Of a stretch of DNA of 64,000 nucleotides, positions 19,202-20,503 are shown one piece after another. The notes under the pieces were generated by a model. The model saw only the letters and a list, made by a program, of their open reading frames with translations. It did not search any database and was not told the origin of the DNA. Source of the DNA: Melioribacter sp. GTDB lineage: Bacteria; Bacteroidota; Ignavibacteria; Ignavibacteriales; Melioribacteraceae. A program made the position numbers and the translations under genes. How positions within the stretch are numbered: the first letter of the stretch is position 1; each line of letters starts with the position of its first letter. The stretch covers positions 62,001 to 126,000 of the forward strand of contig JAHEZQ010000009.1 of NCBI GenBank assembly GCA_023250955.1. Direction: 5' to 3'.

Positions 19202-19732
19202 TTAGCGCGTATAATGATTTAATTTATTTTTAAAATTTTTGTGAGCTTCGAAAGTTAAATATACCGTGATAAGTAAAATTAATGTCAATATTGAAACAAT
19301 CAATAACACATTTTTATTTGAGAAGAAATTTTGAAATTCAATTAAGTTCTTGCCAATTAACTCTTTTGCTTTATCTACATACGGAGCCATTGTCGGTTGA
19401 CCATTTTCATTATCAATAGATTTGAAGGCCGCAATAATAACTCCCAAAACCCCAATCGAGAAAAGCGTAATAATTGATACAAAGAAGTAACTAACCTTTG
19501 GCTTAACTGCTTTAGAAACATCTGAGATTGCTTTCATTACTCTCTCTGAAAAATTTACCGGTGCTTGTTCAACTTCCATCTGCTTTAAGGAATTATCAAC
19601 TAGGCGTAATGCTTTCAATCTTGCCAGAGTTTCATCATTCTTTTCAATTTCATTTTTCACTTCAGCAAGTTCAAATGATTCCAGCTCGCCGTCAATGTAT
19701 TTATTCAAAATTTCATCGGTTAACTTATTCAT
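19202..19732 (-). CDS. Membrane anti-sigma factor-like protein
   Basis: 176 residues. The N-terminal part (1-90) looks like an anti-sigma domain (LTDEILNKYIDGELESFELAEVKNEI) but has no HxxxCxxC zinc motif. It is followed by TM1 around 98-119 and TM2 around 146-166. The start overlaps the sigma-factor stop by 4 bases (ATGA), the usual arrangement for a regulator and its ECF sigma. The role as anti-sigma is inferred from position, the N-terminal helices and topology. Confidence 0.75.
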   Translation of the reverse strand: MNKLTDEILNKYIDGELESFELAEVKNEIEKNDETLARLKALRLVDNSLKQMEVEQAPVNFSERVMKAISDVSKAVKPKVSYFFVSIITLFSIGVLGVIIAAFKSIDNENGQPTMAPYVDKAKELIGKNLIEFQNFFSNKNVLLIVSILTLILLITVYLTFEAHKNFKNKLNHYTR

Positions 19733-20295
19733 AACATTTCCTCCTGATAGTTATGCTTAAGGAGCAAATCCTTCAAAGCATTACGTGAACGATGCAATAA
19801 AACTTTTGTATTTACTAATGATGTTCCCATCACTTGACTAATTTCATTCAACGAAAGTCCATCCATATAAAATAATATTACCACAAGAGCACCACGAACG
19901 GGAAGTTTATCTACCATTTTAAGAATGTATTGCCGTACATTTTCTGTGGTACCGTAAATTTCATTATCATAATTGCCAAGATCATATTCTTCATCTATCG
20001 AACTCATCTCTTGTTCAATTTTTCTTTTCTTAGATGACAATACGGTTAAACCGGTATTGAAAACTATCTTATACAGCCATGTTGAGAACTGGGCATCTTT
20101 ACGAAAATCTTCTAAACCGTTAAATGCTTTTAAGAAACTGTCTTGAAGCGCTTCCTCGGCATCCAGTTCGTTTTTCAAAATTCTCCTTAATAAGGAAAAC
20201 GCCCTGTCTTTATATCTATTTATCAGAAGGGAAAAATCAGACGAATTCCCTCTTTTAATAGACTCAATAATTTCTGTGTCACTTAAGTGTCTCAT
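19729..20295 (-). CDS. ECF RNA polymerase sigma factor (sigma-70 family)
   Basis: 188 residues. Region 2 (about 10-85) includes LINRYKDRAFSLLRRILKNELDAEEALQDSFLKAFNGLEDFR and FSTWLYKIVFNTG. Region 4 (about 125-180) includes LVVILFYMDGLSLNEISQVMGTSLVNTKVLLHRSRNALK. There is no region 1 or 3, as in ECF factors. A TGTAACC-N17-GTC promoter lies immediately upstream, suggesting autoregulation. The predicted transcript start is within a few bases of the ATG, so the mRNA may be leaderless; no Shine-Dalgarno is seen. Confidence 0.93.
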   Translation of the reverse strand: MRHLSDTEIIESIKRGNSSDFSLLINRYKDRAFSLLRRILKNELDAEEALQDSFLKAFNGLEDFRKDAQFSTWLYKIVFNTGLTVLSSKKRKIEQEMSSIDEEYDLGNYDNEIYGTTENVRQYILKMVDKLPVRGALVVILFYMDGLSLNEISQVMGTSLVNTKVLLHRSRNALKDLLLKHNYQEEML

Positions 20296-20305
20296 TACTG
20301 CATTA

Positions 20306-20332
20306 GACTAATAACTTTCTTCCAAGGTTACA
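20306..20332 (-). promoter_or_regulatory. ECF-type promoter of the sigma/anti-sigma operon
   Basis: On the minus strand TGTAACC (20332-20326), a 17-base spacer, then GTC (20308-20306). It matches the ECF layout (AAC -35, GTC -10) and is almost identical to the promoter-like site at 20449-20474 facing the other way: AATTGTAACCTT at the -35 and A-GTC at the -10. The sigma start codon is 11 bases beyond the GTC. Confidence 0.7.
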
Positions 20333-20350
20333 ATTAAATTGAAAATAATA

Positions 20351-20378
20351 TGTAACCTTTTAACCATTGAACCTTGTC
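20351..20378 (+). promoter_or_regulatory. Possible second ECF-type promoter
   Basis: TGTAACC with an 18-base spacer to GTC on the plus strand, 100 bases upstream of the better site. It shares TGTAACCTTTTA with that site, but the spacer is long. It could be a weaker promoter or an unused duplicate. Confidence 0.35.
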
Positions 20379-20448
20379 AAAAGAAGTGAGATAAATAATT
20401 CTCTGTTTAAGATAGCAGAATCATTACTTAAGAAAAACAAAAATTAAT

Positions 20449-20474
20449 TGTAACCTTTTAGAAAAATTATAGTC
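20449..20474 (+). promoter_or_regulatory. ECF-type promoter of the small membrane-protein gene
   Basis: TGTAACC (20449-20455), a 16-base spacer, then GTC (20472-20474). It is followed by AAAGGAGG and ATG at 20504. Its close likeness to the sigma gene's own upstream site suggests that the neighbour is a direct target of this sigma factor. Confidence 0.7.
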
Positions 20475-20503
20475 ATAAGTAATAAATAACAAAAGGAGGA
20501 AAT

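Follow-up and report, generated by a model that had tools for sequence, protein, structure and literature searches.

A probable self-contained ECF sigma factor circuit with a divergent DUF6249 membrane-protein gene in Melioribacter

Related ECF systems and the genes of the locus

FecI of Escherichia coli is a sigma factor with a single neighbouring target operon; it is not autoregulated, and its partners are FecR and FecA. ECF sigma factors that are paired with an anti-sigma factor and subject to autoregulation form a textbook kind of circuit (PMC8103513). RpoE-RseA of E. coli and SigW-RsiW of Bacillus subtilis each combine a two-domain ECF sigma factor with an adjoining class I membrane anti-sigma factor, autoregulation, an AAC-type -35 element and a -10 element of the CGT/GTC type (PMC8103513). 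In Flavobacterium psychrophilum SM6, the sigma/anti-sigma operon THC0290_1774/1773 lies downstream of a mapped ECF-type promoter whose -10 region contains CGT, and T9SS and Band-7 genes are among the other SM6 genes (PMC9723704). Streptomyces sigJ, which is listed among known leaderless genes, is under the control of another sigma factor and not of itself (PMC3160421).

The locus described here, in a window of 64 kb (the whole stretch of DNA that was analysed), is probably a self-contained ECF circuit in which the sigma factor drives its own operon and a divergent DUF6249 gene. It is like RpoE-RseA and SigW-RsiW in all of the above features, autoregulation being predicted here, and unlike them in that its regulon apparently comprises no more than the sigma operon plus a single DUF6249 gene and in that the sigma promoter abuts the start codon. 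Like FecI, the sigma factor appears dedicated to an adjacent target; however, a Pfam search with the window anti-sigma factor gave no FecR match. An ECF-type promoter precedes the sigma/anti-sigma operon as in SM6, mapped there and predicted here, SM6 differing in having T9SS and Band-7 genes among its other genes, and the ECF sigma gene would have a leaderless mRNA as in sigJ. The type of circuit is already known, and its variant features here are the DUF6249 coupling, the single-locus regulon and the leaderless sigma. What would set the system apart is a close and long-standing tie to a single DUF6249 gene, an apparent lack of any further targets, and a sigma mRNA predicted to be leaderless. 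By title, the literature matches listed for leaderless ECF genes and for ECF circuits of Bacteroidetes/Flavobacteria do not describe this module, and the one listed for DUF6249 concerns a plant gene family.

The sigma factor contains only sigma regions 2 and 4, both over the Pfam cut-off, within 188 residues, as is characteristic of the ECF (group IV sigma-70) family. It matches E. coli sigma-E in the PDB (1or7, E 9.5e-22) and shares 98% identity with a Melioribacter MAG sequence, and its named relatives place the genome among the Melioribacteraceae/Ignavibacteriales; with 77.2 bits against a curated cut-off of 130, it is not a member of the NCBIfam GFO_1088/PG0214 ECF family. An in-frame stop four codons upstream of the ATG leaves no earlier start possible.

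The downstream gene overlaps the sigma gene by 4 nt, and a profile of its product (64 sequences) matches RsiW (6.6e-9), with weaker matches to RseA, RsrA and ChrR, so that the sigma factor has an adjacent anti-sigma factor. The window protein alone scores 23.3 bits against RseA_N, just under the cut-off of 24. The helix-1 aspartate of class I anti-sigma factors is present as D14, invariant in the 64 sequences and judged by eye to be equivalent to RseA D11, a named key contact (PMC7406223). The structure model (pLDDT 81.7, pTM 0.34) had RsiW, RseA and ChrR as its best Foldseek matches (E 0.2-0.9), and long helices C-terminal to the anti-sigma domain appear, by eye, to be membrane-spanning. We infer that the two genes encode a cognate, co-transcribed pair.

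Table 1. Features of the locus, in window coordinates
Feature	Position	Strand	Remarks
Anti-sigma factor, class I type	19202..19732	-	N-terminal anti-sigma domain; 4-nt overlap with sigma stop
ECF sigma factor gene, 188 aa, ATG at 20295	19729..20295	-	Pfam Sigma70_r2 5e-13, Sigma70_r4_2 9e-10
Shine-Dalgarno AGGAGG of anti-sigma gene	19740..19745	-	From sequence; inside sigma 3' end
Predicted sigma autopromoter, TGTAACC-N17-GTC	20306..20332	-	10 nt separate GTC from sigma ATG; kept in 47/47 sigma loci
A+T-rich 18-bp stretch between nearest back-to-back -35 elements, candidate shared UP element	20333..20350		94% A+T
Predicted distal DUF6249 promoter, TGTAACC-N18-GTC	20351..20378	+	Second plus-strand site in 22 genomes
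Predicted proximal DUF6249 promoter, TGTAACC-N16-GTC	20449..20474	+	29 nt upstream of ATG; plus-strand site in 45/45 contiguous intergenics
Shine-Dalgarno AAGGAGG of DUF6249	20493..20499	+	From sequence
DUF6249 membrane protein, 114 aa	20504..20848	+	Pfam PF19762 9.3e-15

Promoter motifs and their conservation

The pattern TGTAACCTT-N12..17-GTC has exactly three matches in the window, all within 20306-20474, with spacers of 17, 18 and 16 nt behind TGTAACC; 100 dinucleotide shuffles of the window gave a mean of 0.07 and at most two. The ECF-type motif that the earlier note had seen before the sigma operon and the small membrane-protein gene is therefore real. The -35 core alone (TGTAACCTT, at most one mismatch) is unremarkable, with 16 matches against 16.4 expected, and what is noteworthy is its pairing with GTC and its position. 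The outer pair of promoters, on the sigma and DUF6249 sides, had been described as facing; they are in fact divergent, standing back-to-back. The third copy is indeed present, but to call it only a weaker one does not do it justice, as a distal plus-strand site occurs in 22 of the 45 intergenic regions with a plus-strand site, the window included.

Conservation was analysed in 57 genomes of the order, including the window's own, by searches with the sigma and DUF6249 proteins. Sigma orthologues were separated from other ECF sigma factors by score (46 at E <=5e-34), and G042 was added, whose sigma gene adjoins its DUF6249 gene though it is cut by a contig end. Both genes are present in the same 47 genomes and missing from the same 10 (Fisher p 2e-11, uncorrected for kinship); in G031 and G032 they lie on separate contigs. 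Every sigma locus (47/47) has a GTAAC-N17..19-GTC site on its sigma side, and every contiguous intergenic region (45/45) has one on the DUF6249 side; these counts are not independent, since the genomes are related. When each of 46 intergenic regions was shuffled 200 times, the mean numbers of loci with a site dropped to 0.21 and 0.29, from 46 and 45 in the real sequences. Both ends of the region retain their -35 and -10 elements, with spacer bases that vary among genomes. This comparison shows that the predicted sites on both sides are conserved as a unit, and such phylogenetic footprinting lends strong support to the autoregulation and single direct divergent target proposed in the earlier note.

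The nearest back-to-back -35 elements are 18 bp apart in the window and 18-21 bp apart in 19 of 45 loci; in the remaining loci, spacings between 10 and 601 bp occur. In the 22 loci where the spacing is at most 30 bp, the DNA between them is 86% A+T, compared to 72% in the rest of the intergenic region, and is the richer of the two in 20, which suggests a shared UP element.

The intergenic region would thus be the control centre of the circuit. The membrane anti-sigma factor would keep the ECF sigma factor inactive until a presumed envelope signal leads to its release, and the freed sigma factor, if it recognizes TGTAACC-N16..18-GTC promoters as supposed, would amplify the sigma/anti-sigma operon through the minus-strand promoter and switch on the divergent DUF6249 gene through the proximal and distal ones. 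The putative sigma transcript would be translated without a Shine-Dalgarno sequence, and the anti-sigma factor and DUF6249 from good Shine-Dalgarno sites.

The association extends beyond the order. Among 296 genomes sampled from the phylum, in the search tool's definition, 89 have a DUF6249 match. From a total of 99 matches, 78 were analysed (four under the Pfam cut-off), 16 belonging to relatives already covered and five, also under that cut-off, being left out. An ECF sigma gene of any kind (profile score >50) lies within 2.5 kb in 75 of these 78 further loci (61 divergent, 11 tandem, three of undecided orientation); in L123, L162 and L168 no sigma gene was found within that distance of DUF6249. 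TGTAAC..GTC has 81 matches in 44.7 kb of upstream windows versus 15 in 756 kb elsewhere. In several families of the class other than the window's own, TGTAAC is mostly absent: 12 of the 23 TGTAAC-less loci have a sigma-side TGAAAC..GTC at a distance of 11-67 nt from the first start codon, a count made without a chance control, and in others no motif was found. Start codons in this set are the first in each ORF, unchecked, with a few negative or long gaps (25 nt at one locus). In one family the spacer seemed to be shorter by 3 bp, but this proved to be a regular-expression artefact of GTCGTC. The uncharacterised DUF6249 family would gain a regulatory home across much of the phylum.

Role of DUF6249 and translation of the sigma mRNA

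The window protein belongs to the DUF6249 family (54.9 bits against a PF19762 cut-off of 33). Its AlphaFold2 model (mean pLDDT 85.8, pTM 0.55) is built of four helices, three of them long and one short, and past the first helix there is a conserved charged stretch in which E29 and G37 are nearly invariant. Searches of solved structures gave no confident match, and no Foldseek hit had E <1. The protein most likely serves either as the circuit's only effector, in the inner membrane, or as a partner of the anti-sigma factor in feedback. Two-protein membrane anti-sigma complexes exist in Bacillus and, by analogy, DUF6249 could be not an effector and instead a second membrane regulator, a co-anti-sigma factor or sensor, that shuts down or tunes the circuit. 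We regard this as a real but tentative possibility: DUF6249 is the sole consistent target apart from the sigma operon, its presence and absence track the sigma factor, and the protein is small and helical, with the charged stretch noted above, whereas Foldseek offers no confident fold match and the interaction is hypothetical. In three genomes (G023, G043 and G050; loci L024, L073 and L074), two adjoining DUF6249-like matches are found next to the sigma gene.

The gap between GTC and the sigma start codon is 9-12 nt in 44 of 47 loci; in the three exceptions the promoter lies 22, 70 and 84 nt upstream of the start codon. In Sinorhizobium, 9 nt separate the mapped ECF promoter of RpoE9 from the start site downstream of it (PMC3616915). 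With this spacing the window sigma transcript is predicted to begin 0-4 nt before the ATG, and the earlier note's own spacing (7-10 nt after GTC) leads to the same start. The sigma mRNA is thus most likely leaderless or nearly so, as judged from the promoter position, a point on which the earlier note is silent. Shine-Dalgarno sequences of at least 4 nt precede 7/46 sigma genes, compared to 42/44 anti-sigma and 43/44 DUF6249 genes. Because only 14 of 42 window genes have such a sequence at their first ATG (control, 37 of 261 internal ATGs), its absence alone is a weak sign.

A similar layout occurs in a second ECF group. Twenty paralogous ECF genes, picked from the order-level sigma matches, fall into nine similarity clusters. 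In one cluster, CGTCTAA is found 6-8 nt upstream of the ATG in 8/8 members, seven of which have GGAAC upstream, so that leaderless sigma mRNAs may recur. The members are L214, L219, L221, L222, L224, L225, L226 and L231. A single further paralogue, L223, has GTC 8 nt ahead of its start, and in five others the distance is 22-27 nt.

It is rather unlikely that the translated sigma mRNA instead has a leader, made from an upstream housekeeping promoter beside which the close ECF promoter would be minor. Some basal source of sigma is needed, and leaderless messages are reported to be rare, making up 5.5% of the mRNAs mapped in F. psychrophilum (PMC9723704), with a leaderless signal in one of 37 Bacteroidetes/Chlorobi genomes (PMC3160421); nevertheless, the constant short gap, the near absence of Shine-Dalgarno sequences at the sigma gene only, and the equal layout in all eight sampled members of the second group argue for a leaderless message. 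The locus would allow a clean test of whether translation of a leaderless message serves to set the sigma/anti-sigma balance in a group reported to have few such mRNAs.

A more far-reaching version, to which we give little credence, would make the module an ancient, phylum-wide, single-output circuit, with a sigma factor solely for the three-helix DUF6249, a shared UP element and a leaderless sigma mRNA. Since the leaderless sigma would be uncoupled from the anti-sigma factor and DUF6249 led by Shine-Dalgarno sites, the sigma/anti-sigma ratio would sense ribosome or initiation status, and DUF6249 would be a hitherto unknown subunit of the anti-sigma complex, acting in the membrane to give feedback.

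Size of the regulon

The genome-wide motif search suggested in the earlier note was carried out at several stringencies. In the window's own genome, the window pattern has 10 matches and the reversed pattern none; five of the seven matches beyond the locus lie inside longer ORFs and two are intergenic in the right orientation. At the order level, a strict pattern (TGTAACCWWW-N13..15-GTCHNA) gave 122 matches in the 47 genomes that have the sigma gene, of which 87 fall at the locus and 35 outside it (reversed control, 37), and five in the 10 sigma-negative genomes (reversed, six). In 14 chosen module-bearing genomes of other classes, TGTAACCWNN-N13..15-GTCNWA had 61 matches, 24 at DUF6249/sigma loci and 37 elsewhere, with no excess over the 37 of the reversed pattern. 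As strict matches beyond the locus are no more numerous than reversed ones, the regulon is predicted to comprise essentially two transcripts, which would make it even smaller than the small regulon that had been envisaged. No targets outside the locus are predicted at strict stringency, and targets with weaker boxes are possible. One sigma factor would accordingly be devoted to a single gene over very long evolutionary times.

A looser pattern (TGTAACY-N16..18-GTCWWA) gave 69 matches in 12 members of the genus, 22 of them at the locus, against 48 reversed, with no overall excess; 30 of the 69 were taken as loci and 27 were readable. Upstream of TolC-like genes in five genomes and of DUF4097-like genes in three (names assigned by eye), among others, TGTAACT..GTC sites recur at a distance of 26-48 nt. 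These loci are L234, L243, L247, L256 and L257 (TolC-like), L235, L236 and L255 (DUF4097-like), and L260. The sigma-negative genomes G002, G009 and G010 also carry such sites before envelope-type genes, among them TolC-like L257 in G002. Their recurrence, also without the window's sigma factor, raises the possibility that another ECF sigma factor reads similar boxes, and suggests a separate ECF regulon.

That such a sigma factor mainly reads the locus promoters too, as part of a wider envelope regulon, is very unlikely despite these recurring sites, because the locus sites in the window's order follow TGTAAC with C and mostly carry A, T or G in front of GTC, strict matches beyond the locus stay at control level, and none of the 10 sigma-negative genomes retains DUF6249.

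Two further genes were considered as targets of the preferred circuit, in which the sigma factor serves its own operon and DUF6249. The MATE gene L008 was rejected, as its -35 box is lost in the close relative G003 and reads TGTAACA in G007. A repeat-protein gene (L005, 465-1469, minus strand), whose product has a signal-like start and a VC2662-family similarity of 34.8 bits (under the cut-off of 140), is preceded by GTAAC..GTC in all four orthologues found among nine genomes, its own included. The boxes are variable and also fit the other sites; this gene may be a further target of the circuit.
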